Below, piece by piece: positions 50,327 to 57,636 of a stretch of 64,000 nucleotides of DNA. The position numbers and the translations under genes were made by a program. Numbering within the stretch: position 1 is the first letter of the stretch; the number at the start of each line of letters is the position of its first letter. The notes beneath the pieces were generated by a model that ran no database searches, had not been told where the DNA came from, and saw nothing but the letters and a program-made list of their open reading frames with translations. Source of the DNA: Phycisphaerales bacterium (GTDB lineage Bacteria > Planctomycetota > Phycisphaerae > Phycisphaerales > UBA1924); NCBI GenBank assembly GCA_029260395.1, contig JAJDDJ010000018.1, forward strand, positions 186,001 to 250,000, written 5' to 3'.

Positions 50327-50830
50327 ATGAACCAGCCTCCGCACCTCCTGCAACCCGATGACCAGAGCCGCGAACCGCTCGGCGGCTCGACGGCGCCCGT
50401 CGGAAGCTCACGCTTCCCCGCCAGAACCGTCGCCGACCCGAAGCTCACCCGGTCGTTCGCCATCGATGCCGCCAGGCTCTGCCGCGACGACAAGTGCACC
50501 CACGTTCGCCTGCTCGATGTCCGCGAACTGAGCCAAGTCACCGACTTCATCGTGATCGCATCGGGCACGAGCGAGCGGCAGATGCGCTCCGTGCTCCACC
50601 ACATCGACGACCTGGGCAAAGATGCCGGCTTCCCCGCATTTAGAATCTCGACGGACCAGAATGCCGACTGGCTCCTCGCCGACTTTGTCGATGTCGTCGT
50701 CCATCTCTTCGAGCCCGACACCCGCCTGCACTACGACCTCGAAACGCTCTGGGGCGATGCCGAGCGTGTCGAGTGGGAAGAACCAGACGGCGGACCTGGC
50801 GCGCGAAAGCAAGAGAACACCAACGGCTGA
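50327..50830 (+). CDS. rsfS: Ribosome silencing factor RsfS
   Basis: RsfS (YbeB/iojap family) binds protein L14 of the large subunit and blocks subunit joining when nutrients fall. 167 residues: a non-conserved N-terminal extension of about 40, then AARLCRDDKCTHVRLLDV, VTDFIVIASGTSERQ and the C-terminal WLLADFVDVVVHLFEPDTR with the final ETLWGDAERVEW. A tail of about 17 follows. It is five bases from panD and probably co-transcribed with it and aroB. Confidence 0.92.
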   Translation: MNQPPHLLQPDDQSREPLGGSTAPVGSSRFPARTVADPKLTRSFAIDAARLCRDDKCTHVRLLDVRELSQVTDFIVIASGTSERQMRSVLHHIDDLGKDAGFPAFRISTDQNADWLLADFVDVVVHLFEPDTRLHYDLETLWGDAERVEWEEPDGGPGARKQENTNG

Positions 50831-50835
50831 GGCCC

Positions 50836-51240
50836 ATGCTCCGCAAAGTGCTCCACAGCAAGATCCACATGGCCTGCGTCACCCGGGCGCTGCCAAACTA
50901 CGTTGGCTCGATCACCATCGATGCCGACCTGCTCGAACGCTGCTCCATGCGCGTCAACGACGCCGTCGAGATCGCCAACTGTCGCAACGGCGAACGCTTC
51001 GAAACCTACATCTTCCGTGGCGAGCCCGGCTCGGGCGCGATCGAAGTCAACGGTGCCGCGGCGCACAAAGTTGAACAAGGCGACCGCCTCATCATCATGC
51101 ACTACGCGCTCATCGATGACGCCGAGTACGAACAGCTCTCTCCCAAGGTGCTGCTCATGAACGAGGACAACACCGTCGCCGACACCATGACTTACCGGCC
51201 CCACGACGGCCATCCGCCACGGAAGCATCCAGCCGATTGA
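50836..51240 (+). CDS. panD: Aspartate 1-decarboxylase
   Basis: Makes beta-alanine for pantothenate and coenzyme A. 134 residues from ATG 50836. The family opening MLRKVLHSKIHMACVT and the self-cleavage site Gly-Ser in YVGSITID (Ser25) generate the pyruvoyl cofactor. GAAAHKVEQGDRLIIMHYA is the conserved C-terminal block. The family usually ends near 125 residues. CoaD, later in the same pathway, lies at the other end of the window. Confidence 0.95.
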   Translation: MLRKVLHSKIHMACVTRALPNYVGSITIDADLLERCSMRVNDAVEIANCRNGERFETYIFRGEPGSGAIEVNGAAAHKVEQGDRLIIMHYALIDDAEYEQLSPKVLLMNEDNTVADTMTYRPHDGHPPRKHPAD

Positions 51241-51271
51241 CCCAGCCCCCGCGATCTTGCCACATCGATCC

Positions 51272-52441
51272 ATGCCTGATTCCACCACCATCCCCGTTCG
51301 CCTCGGCGATCGCACCTACGAGGTTGCCATCGGGCGTGACCTGCTGGCGCAGGCAGCTGCCCGTGTCAGCGACGCGCTCGGTTACACACCAACCAAGACC
51401 CTCGTCGTCGCCGACACCGGCGCTCGGCCCCACGTTGACCGGGTCATGGACTCGCTCTCCCAGGCCGGCATCGAGGCGCACCGCATCGACATCACTCCGG
51501 CCGAACGCACAAAGACCATCGCCACGTTCGCCTGTGTGCTTGAAGCAGCAGCCAGCGCGGGCCTCGAACGCACCAACCCGATCATCGCCGTCGGCGGCGG
51601 GATCGTCGGCGATGTCGCGGGCTTCGCAGCATCTGCCTACCGGCGCGGCGTGCCCAGCGTCGTCTGCCCGACCACGCTGCTGAGCATGGTCGATGCCTCC
51701 GTCGGAGGCAAAACAGGCGTTAACCTCACCTGCCCCACGGGCGGGCTCATCAAGAACATGGCAGGCGCGTTCCACCAGCCTTCGCTCGTGCTCGCCGATC
51801 TTCTCACCCTCACCACCCTCGACGCCCGCCACCTCACAAGCGGCCTCGCCGAATGCGTCAAGCACGCCATGCTCTCCGCCGACCACGGCGACCCGGGCGC
51901 CCTTGAATGGCTGCGCCTCCATGCAGACGCCCTCGCCCAACTCGAACCCGCTGCGATGGACTCGCTCGTCACCCGCTCGGTTCAGCTCAAGGCCCGGGTC
52001 GTAGAGCATGACGAACGCGAACTCGCCGCTGCAGGATCAGCCCACGGCCGGGCCACCCTCAATCTGGGCCACACCTTCGCCCACGCCATCGAACCCATCG
52101 AGCATCTCTCGCCCACCGGCAAGCCCGGCGATGTCCCGCTCCACCACGGCGAAGCAGTGGGCCTGGGCCTGATCGCCGCCTGCGCAACCGCTGCTATCAC
52201 AGGTCTTTGCGACCCGTCCTACGGCGACTCCGTCTCCTCCCTGCTCACCCACCTCGGCCTGCCGATTCGGATCGCAGGCCTGCCCGACAACGCCGAGCTT
52301 CGTGCCCGGATGCTCTCCGACAAGAAGGTCGCCCAGGGCGCGATTCGGCTCGTCCTGCCGACCGCCCCGGGAAGCGCCAGACTGATCGACGACTGCCCAG
52401 CCGAGGCCATCGATGCAGGCTGGGACCGCATCCGAGCCTGA
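51272..52441 (+). CDS. aroB: 3-dehydroquinate synthase
   Basis: Second step of the shikimate pathway, NAD- and zinc-dependent. 389 residues from ATG 51272. Motifs: IIAVGGGIVGDVAGFAASAY, TTLLSMVDASVGGKTGVN, and the zinc ligands Glu in SGLAECVKH, His in LGHTFAHAIE and His in LHHGEAVGLGL. A TTG at 51257 is an alternative start. It is followed by a 150-base gap carrying CTGTG repeats, then the ParA-fusion gene. Confidence 0.95.
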   Translation: MPDSTTIPVRLGDRTYEVAIGRDLLAQAAARVSDALGYTPTKTLVVADTGARPHVDRVMDSLSQAGIEAHRIDITPAERTKTIATFACVLEAAASAGLERTNPIIAVGGGIVGDVAGFAASAYRRGVPSVVCPTTLLSMVDASVGGKTGVNLTCPTGGLIKNMAGAFHQPSLVLADLLTLTTLDARHLTSGLAECVKHAMLSADHGDPGALEWLRLHADALAQLEPAAMDSLVTRSVQLKARVVEHDERELAAAGSAHGRATLNLGHTFAHAIEPIEHLSPTGKPGDVPLHHGEAVGLGLIAACATAAITGLCDPSYGDSVSSLLTHLGLPIRIAGLPDNAELRARMLSDKKVAQGAIRLVLPTAPGSARLIDDCPAEAIDAGWDRIRA

Positions 52442-52591: not shown

Positions 52592-53944
52592 ATGCGGACA
52601 CTGGCGGTCATCAATCAGAAGGGCGGTTGTGGCAAGACCACCACCTCCATCAACCTCGCAGCGGTCCTCGCCCGAGCGGGCCAGAGGACCCTCCTGGTCG
52701 ACCTTGACCCCCAGTCGCACTGCGCTGCGGGCCTCGGCGTGCCCGAACCCCGCATCGACCTCGACATCGCAGACGCCCTCCGGGCCGACGAGCCACTCGA
52801 CCCCGACCGTCTGCTCTGGCCGGTCTCTCGTTGTCTCGACCTCGCGCCCAGCCGCATGAGCCTGGCGGGCCTCGAAGCCATCGGCGGCGGGCTCGTCGAC
52901 AAGCCCGACAAAGAACTCAGACTCCGTCGGGTGCTAAGCCAACTCGCCCCGCGGTACGACGTCTGCCTCATCGATTGCTCGCCATCCATCGGCCTGCTCG
53001 CCTTCAACGCGCTCGTCGCGGCGGATGCAGCCCTCGTGCCGGTCGAGACCTCGTTTTTCTCATTGCAGGGCGCGACCAAGCAGCTCTCGACCGTGCGTTC
53101 GCTCTCGCGCCGCATGGGCCACGAGCTCCGAGTCTGGCTCGTCCCAACGCTGCACGATCCCGAAAGCTCGCTGTGCGAGGACCTGCTCGATGAACTCCGG
53201 CGTCGGTTCGGCTCCAAGGTCGTGCCCGCGGTCATCCGCCGGGACATCGCGCTCAAGGAAGCCGCGAGCTTCGGGCAGCCCATCGTCGAATACGACGCCG
53301 ACACCATCGGCGCCAGCGATTACCAGGCCCTTGGCGACTGGGTGCTGGGCCAGCTCCCATCGCTCGGCAGCGGCGAGGCACACGAACACGTAGAACCCGA
53401 GCTGGGCCAACCGGTCATACGCACCGACAACGGTGCACAAGAAGGCCTGACACGCAAGGTCATCGCGAAGACCGGCGCGCACATCGACGAACTGCACGAC
53501 CGCGCTAAGTCGCTCGCCAACAAGCTCGCCGAGCGCGCCAAGATGGCCGTGCCGCCAGCCATGCCAGAGACCAAACCCGCTGAAAACGAAACCGCGCGCA
53601 GGCTCTTCGGCGCCAGACACACGACCAGCGGCGTGCTCTTCGTTCAGCCGCTCGCACTCGGCAACAAGGTCAGCGTGATCGGCGAGTTCAACCAGTGGGC
53701 GCCGCGCGAGCTAAACCGAAACGAGGCGATGGGCGTCTACGAGCTCTGCGTCAGACTCGAACCGGGCGAGCACCGCTACCGGCTCGATGTCGACGGCCAC
53801 CGACTCGCCGACCCGTACAACTCCGAGTGGCAACTCGACGACCAGGGCAACCCCAACAGCGTAATCCGCGTGCTGCCCACACCCCCGCCACCCGCATCCC
53901 AGCCAACCGCGAACCAGCCAGGCCCTATGACCCAGGCGACCTAA
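52592..53944 (+). CDS. ParA-type ATPase fused to a C-terminal glycogen-binding (CBM48/AMPK-like) domain
   Basis: 450 residues with GAGGG ahead of the ATG. Residues 1-255 are a Soj/ParA ATPase: deviant Walker A KGGCGKTT (10-17) with the signature Lys10, LLVDLDPQSH (34-43) and Walker B YDVCLIDCSPSIG (122-134). A charged linker (260-340) leads to residues 343-428, an AMPK-beta/CBM48-type beta-sandwich: VSVIGEFNQWAP, then GVYELCVRLEPGEHRYRLDV and DPYN, ending NSVIRV. ParA proteins move DNA or cell-envelope cargo by ATP-driven dimerisation; CBM48 binds alpha-glucans. The fusion suggests positioning of glycogen or another glucan, which is inference. No parB follows. Confidence 0.85.
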   Translation: MRTLAVINQKGGCGKTTTSINLAAVLARAGQRTLLVDLDPQSHCAAGLGVPEPRIDLDIADALRADEPLDPDRLLWPVSRCLDLAPSRMSLAGLEAIGGGLVDKPDKELRLRRVLSQLAPRYDVCLIDCSPSIGLLAFNALVAADAALVPVETSFFSLQGATKQLSTVRSLSRRMGHELRVWLVPTLHDPESSLCEDLLDELRRRFGSKVVPAVIRRDIALKEAASFGQPIVEYDADTIGASDYQALGDWVLGQLPSLGSGEAHEHVEPELGQPVIRTDNGAQEGLTRKVIAKTGAHIDELHDRAKSLANKLAERAKMAVPPAMPETKPAENETARRLFGARHTTSGVLFVQPLALGNKVSVIGEFNQWAPRELNRNEAMGVYELCVRLEPGEHRYRLDVDGHRLADPYNSEWQLDDQGNPNSVIRVLPTPPPPASQPTANQPGPMTQAT

Positions 53945-54014: not shown

Positions 54015-55574
54015 ATGGACCCCTCGTTCAAGAATGCACCAGACCCCGACCCCTCGCAGCTCGCGGGCATGTTTGATACCGACTCCCCGCTGCCCGCATG
54101 TAGGCACGGCACCCAAGAGCCAGACCCCGCGATGGTCGACTCACTCGCCGACCTGTTCCTGGGCGACGGCCCGCTATCGCCCGAGCAGCAGCCCGCGTCG
54201 CGCACGCAAGACACAGGCCCCCGACTCCGCCTCGTCGACCACCGGCCCGACGCCTTCGACTCCTTCGAAGAATTCGCAACCAACGACAAGCCTCAAGCCC
54301 CCCATGCCCCCCACGCTCTCGACGCCACCATCGAGGCGGTCGTCCTAGGCCACCTGCCAGTGATCGCCCCCGCCTGGGCCCTTCAGCACGCAGCGAGCCG
54401 GGCGAACGAGCTCGGTGAACCCGTTGCGCTCGTTCGACTCGCCGGCCCCAGCGTCAACGTCGAGCTGCTCGCCCCGACCGGTCAGCGCCTGCAAAGCCCC
54501 TCTCGACACCCGGCATCGCTGCCCGAAGCGCTGCACTGGGCCGCCAGCCGCGCACGCACCTGGATGATCCGCGTCGACGACACCTCCGAGGCCTCGCTCG
54601 CAGAGGCCAGCGACCTCGACACCATCACCGTCCTTACCGGCGCAGACGATGCAGCCGTCGTCGCCTGCTACCGCACCCTCAAGGCGATCGACCACGACCT
54701 CCGCTTCACCATCGGAGACGATGAGGACTTCCCCGAGCTGCGCGTCGCCGTCATGGGCAGCGACCCCAAACGAAGCAGCGCCGCCGCCAGCAAACTAACA
54801 ACTGCCGCAAGCAAGCACCTCGGCATCAGCTCGCTCGAAACCTCGCACCTCAGCAGGATGCAGGCCGTCCAGCCGCTCCGCGTCTTCACCGGCGAGTGCC
54901 ACGACCCAGCACCCGTGCTCATCGCAGCCATCCGAGATGCGCTCGACAGCGCCGAGCCCGCCGCTCAACAACTTCGCGAGTCCACGTTCGAGCCCGCCGC
55001 TATCGAGCACGTTCAGCCAGAATCCATCTTCGACGACCCCAACGAAATCGTGTTCGACGACCGCTGGGACGATGAACCAACCACACAGCCCCACACCGCC
55101 TCTCACACCGGCACTGAACTTCCCGCCCAAGAAGTCGAAGCCCGCTCCACCAGCCCCTCCCACTCGCACCACACCACCGATGCTGGCGAGTTCAGCCCCG
55201 CATCCCTCGTGCCAGGCCTCACGCCGCTTTCGTTCGAGTGCCCACACGCCCCGCGTGTCGAACTCGCGGTCGATGCCGCAGGCCGCCTGCACCTCGTCGC
55301 GCTCGATGCCGACGACGCCTCCATCGTCGGCGAACTGACCCGCGCCAAGAGCTGGGCCATCGCTCACGCCAGCCTGCTGCAAGCCGCCGAGCCCAGACTC
55401 AAAGCGTCGCCCACCTCGCGCGCGACCGCCCTGATCGACGAACCCACGCTGCACGTCCTCACCGACCGCTCCGAACTCGTGCGAACGCTCATCGAGACCG
55501 ATGTCCGCGTCCACCTGCTCGCCCACGCCTCGACCGCCAACCACGGCTGGGTTGTCCGCCCGATCAACGGGTGA
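54015..55574 (+). CDS. Unknown protein, possible P-loop-less MinD/ParA-like partner
   Basis: 519 residues from ATG 54015 (GAGGA ahead), 70 bases after the ParA fusion. Residues 105-285 keep the MinD/FlhG layout: a first strand VVLGHLPVIAPAWALQHAA where the Walker A loop would be (no GKT), PVALVRLAGPSVNVELL in the next strand position, then LDTITVLTGADDAAVVACYR and LRVAVMGSDPKRSSAAA in the later half. This comparison is from pattern only. An acidic linker (330-400) and a second alpha/beta domain (about 415-519) follow. The last 17 codons recur as a DNA repeat at 58047. Confidence 0.45.
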   Translation: MDPSFKNAPDPDPSQLAGMFDTDSPLPACRHGTQEPDPAMVDSLADLFLGDGPLSPEQQPASRTQDTGPRLRLVDHRPDAFDSFEEFATNDKPQAPHAPHALDATIEAVVLGHLPVIAPAWALQHAASRANELGEPVALVRLAGPSVNVELLAPTGQRLQSPSRHPASLPEALHWAASRARTWMIRVDDTSEASLAEASDLDTITVLTGADDAAVVACYRTLKAIDHDLRFTIGDDEDFPELRVAVMGSDPKRSSAAASKLTTAASKHLGISSLETSHLSRMQAVQPLRVFTGECHDPAPVLIAAIRDALDSAEPAAQQLRESTFEPAAIEHVQPESIFDDPNEIVFDDRWDDEPTTQPHTASHTGTELPAQEVEARSTSPSHSHHTTDAGEFSPASLVPGLTPLSFECPHAPRVELAVDAAGRLHLVALDADDASIVGELTRAKSWAIAHASLLQAAEPRLKASPTSRATALIDEPTLHVLTDRSELVRTLIETDVRVHLLAHASTANHGWVVRPING

Positions 55575-57027: not shown

Positions 57028-57636
57028 CTAACGGCGGCGACGGGCTACGGCCAGACCACCCGCCGCCAGCAGCGCAAGCGGCCCCGGTGACGGGACGGGC
57101 GCGTGCAGCGTGAACAGCTCTTCGAGCTGGAACGCGGACGGCTGGAACGCCAGCAGCGGTCCCTGGAAGATGGGCACATCACCCATCATGTCGCCGGTGG
57201 TGTCACGCGAGATGTTCACCAACCCATCATTCCACAGGTACTCCGTGATGATCGTGTCCGTCGTCCCCCGCGGGTTGATGTCCGCGTAGCCCACCAGGTC
57301 GATCACGCCAAGGCTGCTGCGGTCGAACGCTGCGACATTCACGCCGAGCGGAGGCGGGTCACCCACCCAGATGCCAGCCATTCCGACGGTGACACCCGGG
57401 ATCAGGTCCTTCTCCGCCGTGATATGGAAGTCCGGCAGCCACCATGGCACCCCAACATCGTGGTGGGTAGACACCGAGACCGCGTCCCAGTGCCACTCGA
57501 ACAAGAACGGGATCTCGATCCACACACCCACACCCGCCCCGATCCAGATGTCGTCTTGGGCCTGAGCCGGCGCGGCCAGCCCTGCGCACACTGCGCACGA
57601 AGCGATCGCCGCGACGGTCGTTGCATTGGTTCTCAT
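57028..57636 (-). CDS. Secreted protein with PEP-CTERM-like sorting tail
   Basis: 202 residues from ATG 57636 (GAGGAA ahead) with signal peptide TVAAIASCAVCAGLAAPAQAQ. The body is rich in Trp, Asp and Val (WIGAGVGVWIEIPFLFEWHW, then FHITAEKDLIPG). The tail is VPSPGPLALLAAGGLAV followed by ARRRR, a PEP-CTERM variant with PSP in place of PEP. It is probably processed and displayed on the surface or in the matrix. No catalytic motif is seen. Confidence 0.75.
   Translation of the reverse strand: MRTNATTVAAIASCAVCAGLAAPAQAQDDIWIGAGVGVWIEIPFLFEWHWDAVSVSTHHDVGVPWWLPDFHITAEKDLIPGVTVGMAGIWVGDPPPLGVNVAAFDRSSLGVIDLVGYADINPRGTTDTIITEYLWNDGLVNISRDTTGDMMGDVPIFQGPLLAFQPSAFQLEELFTLHAPVPSPGPLALLAAGGLAVARRRR

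Follow-up and report, generated by a model that had tools for sequence, protein, structure and literature searches.

Among the cellular structures whose position depends on ParA/MinD ATPases are chromosomes, carboxysomes, chemoreceptors and flagella. In the systems known so far, ParA does not bind such a cargo itself but leaves this to a partner. One gene in the window (the whole stretch of 64,000 nucleotides of Phycisphaerales bacterium DNA that was analysed) raises the question of whether a ParA can carry a cargo-binding module of its own. An earlier note had read its product as a Soj-type ParA (residues 1-255) joined to a domain (residues 343-428) of the type through which AMPK, the mammalian energy sensor, grips glycogen.

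The fusion gene and its distribution

At 52592-53944 on the forward strand, 450 codons run from an ATG with zero internal stops, and the frame divides as follows.

52592..53944, forward strand: ParA-CBM fusion gene, one open frame of 450 aa plus stop; fusion conserved in Phycisphaerae
52592..53356, forward strand: Soj-type ParA ATPase domain, residues 1-255 (AAA_31, E=2.7e-42; Foldseek to Soj)
53357..53605, forward strand: net-acidic, low-confidence linker, residues 256-338, with a predicted helix at 291-319 (pLDDT, DSSP)
53609..53881, forward strand: predicted AMPK-beta-type glucan-binding beta-sandwich, residues 340-430 (PF16561; alignment to 1z0m; AlphaFold2; conservation)

Searched against Pfam, the protein matched AAA_31 at residues 1-180 and CbiA at residues 4-231, followed by AMPK1_CBM (PF16561) at residues 357-429 with 38.7 bits (E=1.2e-9), above the cut-off of 26.8 bits for that model; the CBM_48 model was sub-threshold (E=0.0048). 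Residues 1-270 retrieved ParA/Soj chains from the PDB by phmmer (best E=3.9e-50), and the C-terminal part had the rat AMPK beta-1 glucan-binding domain (1z0m/1z0n) among its first matches (E=1e-4). AlphaFold2 predicted the ParA domain with pLDDT mostly >90 and residues ~340-430 as an all-beta domain with pLDDT ~94-98, with a helix at 291-319 within a linker of net charge -3; pTM for the full protein was 0.63, the relative placement of the domains being uncertain. Foldseek aligned the ParA half with Soj (TM ~0.92 over the target, rmsd ~2), and all of the 50 best matches listed for the full model were to this half, whereas the CBM was predicted as all-beta. The earlier reading of the two domains, a Soj-type ParA and an AMPK-type CBM, is borne out in full, and the boundaries earlier proposed for the AMPK-type domain were essentially right.

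Since the same fusion was found across independent assemblies, with AAA_31 and AMPK1_CBM (at E<=0.001) both matched in 67/67 aligned homologues, an assembly join or a frameshift was ruled out, and 52592-53944 encodes a genuine fusion of ParA and an AMPK-type CBM. In a sample of 148 well-assembled Phycisphaerae genomes, 98 had a match at E<=1e-90; these together with G206 make up the 99 genome-sampled members used below. On reading the sequences, the CBM was recognisable in 94 of the 99, including four (G046, G214, G220 and G225) in which the profile matches were split yet the CBM was intact, so that at least 94/148 genomes carry the fusion. In a sample of the phylum, 8/9 genomes of the window's class and 0/~140 others had a match extending to the profile end. 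Among the planctomycetes sampled, the fusion is therefore restricted to the class Phycisphaerae, in most of its genomes. Order-level relatives had the ParA in 61/61 cases, and 148/151 genomes of a larger order sample had it; the CBM was missing in about a quarter of the order members retaining ParA, some of them still accompanied by the partner gene described below. The best contig matches were Phycisphaerae/Planctomycetota MAGs, apart from a handful whose labels are vague or implausible, 'Cyanobacteria bacterium' (L058) for one. No plasmid record in PLSDB spanned 80% of the fusion protein, the best matches listed covering the ParA half only.

In line with the view that no known ParA has a built-in glucan-binding domain, no paper pairing AMPK1_CBM with ParA or AAA_31 was found in the library of papers searched, though the architecture may already be listed in subscription journals, preprints or domain-architecture databases. 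The consulted reviews and surveys, which deal with organelle positioning and with multi-cargo ParA/MinD systems, nowhere mention a system for glycogen (PMC13052382, PMC10241942).

DNA-binding and glucan-contact residues

The ATPase half contains a deviant Walker A (NQKGGCGKTT, with K10 and K15), a Walker A' (LLVDLDPQ) and a Walker B (CLIDCSPS). Over 91 sequences, the Walker A NQKGG.GKTT was constant with the single exception C13S. Fold and Walker motifs are like those of Soj/ParA from T. thermophilus (1wcv/2bek) and H. pylori (6iub); the fusion differs by its C-terminal glucan-binding domain and by having no adjacent ParB, its conserved neighbour being a pseudo-FlhG without a Pfam family. R189 and R218 of B. 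subtilis Soj serve non-specific DNA binding (PMC3778016) and align with fusion positions 191 and 220. Both positions are basic, as in Soj, in 72/99 genome-sampled members, whereas the window copy has E191 and A220 and so has lost both. A second Soj-type ParA, 45% identical, is encoded in the same genome (G000:C1:377699-378556, L002) between WecA/MraY-like and MurJ-like genes; no ParB-like ORF was found in its fetched flanks.

By alignment to 1z0m, W100, K126, W133 and N150 of AMPK beta correspond to fusion positions 369, 397, 404 and 422. The domain family is the same (AMPK1_CBM; 1z0m/1z0n), but in AMPK beta it sits on a kinase scaffold and in the fusion on a bacterial ParA. Among 91 sequences W369 was found in 88, R397 in 82 (with K in 4), W404 in 78 and N422 in 73. 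The window copy has W369, R397, R404 and N422: the change from K126 is conservative, the equivalent of W133, present in most fusion members, is replaced by Arg, and two of the three glucan-contact residues (W, R, R) are kept. In AMPK, W100G and K126Q abolish glycogen binding and W133L weakens it (PMC6274970), and in plant PTST mutation of the corresponding Trp pair leads to loss of starch binding (PMC4339375). In PTST (coiled coil plus CBM48), too, a non-catalytic CBM48 serves for targeting and depends on this Trp pair to bind glucan, but unlike the fusion PTST is eukaryotic and has no ATPase. The full contact triad W-R/K-W was present in 88/99 genome-sampled members, and its conservation argues that the CBM would bind glucan in most lineages.

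Wherever the DNA-binding patch was intact the CBM triad was intact as well (72/72), and where the patch was eroded the triad was damaged or lost in 11/27, the window's genome (R404) included. Since the two traits change only 4-5 times on the tree, too few for independent support, the association is suggestive and not significant after phylogenetic correction. Perfect co-retention of CBM and nucleoid patch, as read from the residues, is what a role in positioning or tethering would lead one to expect if it needed both, and the window copy is by the same residues a diverged member of the eroded group, with both features weakened.

A conserved downstream partner

The neighbourhood of the fusion gene includes a second conserved component, which the earlier note did not mention.

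51257..52441, forward strand: aroB, 3-dehydroquinate synthase (Pfam DHQ_synthase and DHQS_C), upstream neighbour
54015..55574, forward strand: partner gene, 519-aa predicted FlhG/MinD-like pseudo-ATPase, 70 bp downstream of the fusion (synteny, profile, Foldseek)
54327..54989, forward strand: partner central domain, aa 105-325, predicted MinD/FlhG fold without P-loop (profile, model, Foldseek)
55197..55571, forward strand: partner C-terminal domain, aa 395-519, folded with confidence in the model, no Pfam family

In 77/99 loci the gene that immediately follows, on the strand of the ParA gene, is a homologue of the partner, and 45 of these 77 genes overlap the ParA gene or start within 30 bp of it; the two genes probably form an operon. 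The partner family profile matched FlhG in the PDB (4rz2, E=1.7e-6) and also FleN, and Foldseek returned FlhG (4rz3, E=9e-6, probability 1.0). The P-loop GxxxxGK[ST] was found in 0/77 partners, and Pfam gave no match to the partner protein and no family supported across 52 members. The C-terminal domain was predicted with pLDDT mostly ~80-95, and an N-terminal LADLFL-type motif was present in 34/77. Taken with the profile and structural matches, the missing P-loop identifies the partner as a FlhG/MinD-like protein that is degenerate and bears an additional C-terminal domain. It has the central fold and profile similarity of FlhG/FleN in common with them, but differs by the absence of the P-loop, by extra N- and C-terminal regions and by its location outside any flagellar operon. 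In many genomes the partner profile also gives weak matches to a genuine FlhG encoded next to FlhA, and in the window's own genome such a separate FlhG adjoins FlhA at C2:154-159 kb. With such a partner, the pair suggests that a MinD-family ATPase that is itself dead may serve a live one, a case so far unrecognised.

Two clades with an intact fusion (families f9/f93/f94/f96 and f81/f89/f90/f91) yielded no match to the partner. No replacement for it was found, since the downstream genes of partner-less loci are mutually unrelated (a P-domain protein, GAPDH, DUF2961); at L079:9315-9911 and L084:2055-2678 the gene that follows codes for a protein with a proprotein-convertase P-domain. Upstream, within the closer clade, aroB directly precedes the fusion gene in 23 loci, and in the window (50327-52441) rsfS, panD and aroB lie on the same strand as the fusion, rsfS and panD having been read by eye. 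Besides the partner, no neighbour conserved across loci was found when McdB-like or cargo genes were sought, and no glycogen gene was present among the neighbouring genes scanned against Pfam.

Glucan metabolism, flagella and the role of the fusion

Compared with the ParA proteins already known, the family adds a fused domain and a partner, both of them new. Also new are the conservation of the downstream gene, the strong retention of CBM contacts and DNA-binding arginines across the family, and the membership of the window copy in the eroded group. Our preferred reading, which we find plausible though somewhat short of probable, is a positioning or regulatory ParA specific to Phycisphaerae, to which a flexible, acidic linker joins an alpha-glucan-binding module, and that has diverged in the window's organism. 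In intact lineages an ATP-bound ParA dimer would attach to the nucleoid by its conserved R191/K220 patch, and the tethered CBM would bind an alpha-glucan, which might be a polymer resembling glycogen, nascent maltodextrin or glucan carrying a bound enzyme. The ATPase cycle might then tether, space or license this carbohydrate cargo, or glucan occupancy might control the ATPase. In most lineages the co-encoded P-loop-less FlhG-like protein could act as regulator or adaptor. Since the nucleoid patch is eroded in the window's clade, and the CBM degraded or lost in some members, the window copy included, the module there probably relies on the partner, on protein contacts or on both, not on classical nucleoid tethering of glycogen.

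Several results count against this preferred reading. Glycogen enzymes are patchy among carriers: in the class sample 61/89 full-profile carriers were without a GT5 match and 15/89 without both GT5 and GH13, and most of the GT5 matches that were found have low scores, so that they may be something other than true GlgA. Nor does loss of the CBM follow loss of phosphorylase. With PF00343, 7/11 CBM-defective genomes lacked a match, but this association was dropped because the more sensitive TIGR02094 recovered divergent phosphorylases in G037, G042, G058, G325 and G328 that PF00343 had missed; in the order, the enzyme was absent from ~10/35 CBM-less and 23/113 other members, with no concentration among the CBM-less. 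The phosphorylases of these and other genomes of family f2 are ~720-780 aa long, with a longer open frame in G037; they were missed by PF00343 at E<=1e-10 and matched strongly by TIGR02094, so that a Pfam-only survey leads to false absence. The preferred reading must also accommodate the non-significance of the patch/CBM association after phylogenetic correction, the want of co-located glycogen genes, the two large intact-fusion clades in which the partner was undetected, and the precedent of known ParA systems, such as McdA/McdB (PMC13052382), that bind cargo through a partner.

The earlier proposal that the protein spaces or partitions glycogen granules fared differently at the two levels. 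For the window copy it is disfavoured, since the second glucan-contact Trp (now R404) and the DNA-binding residues (E191/A220) are lost, and since in the organism's own draft genome (93% complete) no GT5 glycogen synthase or GH57 was found at the thresholds used and no GT35 alpha-glucan phosphorylase with two models; two GH13 matches were present. Glycogen positioning by this copy is unlikely. At the level of the family, the triad intact in 88/99 speaks for the proposal and the patchy glycogen genes against it, and glycogen-granule partitioning in intact lineages is a live hypothesis. Its fullest form, which we regard as possible but doubtful, would be a dedicated ParA system distributing or partitioning an alpha-glucan body, in which the ATPase-fused AMPK-type domain binds the cargo directly and the pseudo-FlhG replaces a ParB/McdB-type adaptor in most lineages. 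Such a system would, like the McdA/McdB system of carboxysome positioning, combine a ParA-type ATPase, a downstream partner gene and a cargo of carbon metabolism, but with the candidate cargo binder fused to the ATPase and a partner that is not McdB-like. A single protein binding granule and nucleoid, as may be the case for the fusion, is known from the PHB granule tethers PhaM, PhaF and PhaH, which have no ParA domain (PMC13052382).

The CBM might instead read the level of alpha-glucan or maltodextrin and tune the ATPase/DNA-binding cycle, with control of growth, division or motility as the output, a glucan-sensing switch that we judge rather unlikely. Glycogen binding modulates AMPK, and the fusion has the domain type and contact residues of AMPK-beta on a long, flexible linker; most genomes of the order (117/151) have an alpha-glucan phosphorylase. 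Against such a switch, no effector neighbours the fusion besides the pseudo-FlhG, and G321 keeps an intact triad while having no detected phosphorylase, GT5 or GH13, though it cannot serve as a genome without glucan enzymes since GH57 is present.

We are also inclined to doubt that the CBM fold is a protein-protein docking domain, with ParA-CBM and pseudo-FlhG together helping to place flagella, division machinery or an envelope structure. The FlhG-like nature of the partner, the presence of FlhA in 82/89 full-fusion genomes, the loss of W404 in the window copy and the quarter or so of ParA-keeping order members that have no CBM, some still with the partner, are in its favour. However, docking does not predict the invariance of the sugar-contact triad in patch-intact members, and a genuine FlhG already adjoins FlhA in the window's own genome. 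A strict flagellar link was ruled out by exceptions in both directions, 7 full-fusion genomes being without FlhA and 28 FlhA-positive genomes without the ParA.

An ordinary ParA for chromosome segregation, its C-terminal appendage being incidental, would be in keeping with Soj as the closest solved fold and with the DNA patch intact in 72/99 members, but is very improbable given that no ParB adjoins it, that the genome has a second Soj-type ParA (C1:377699), and that the appendage is kept class-wide with strongly conserved contact residues.

The fusion is a prokaryotic parallel to the use of the same domain by AMPK, and a class-wide ParA with a conserved glucan triad and nucleoid patch makes a direct coupling of carbohydrate reserves to cell organisation or inheritance testable. 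Elsewhere in the window, 57028-57636 on the reverse strand encodes a small protein that begins with a signal-like stretch and ends in a PEP-CTERM-like tail (PSPGPLALLAAGGLAVARRRR).
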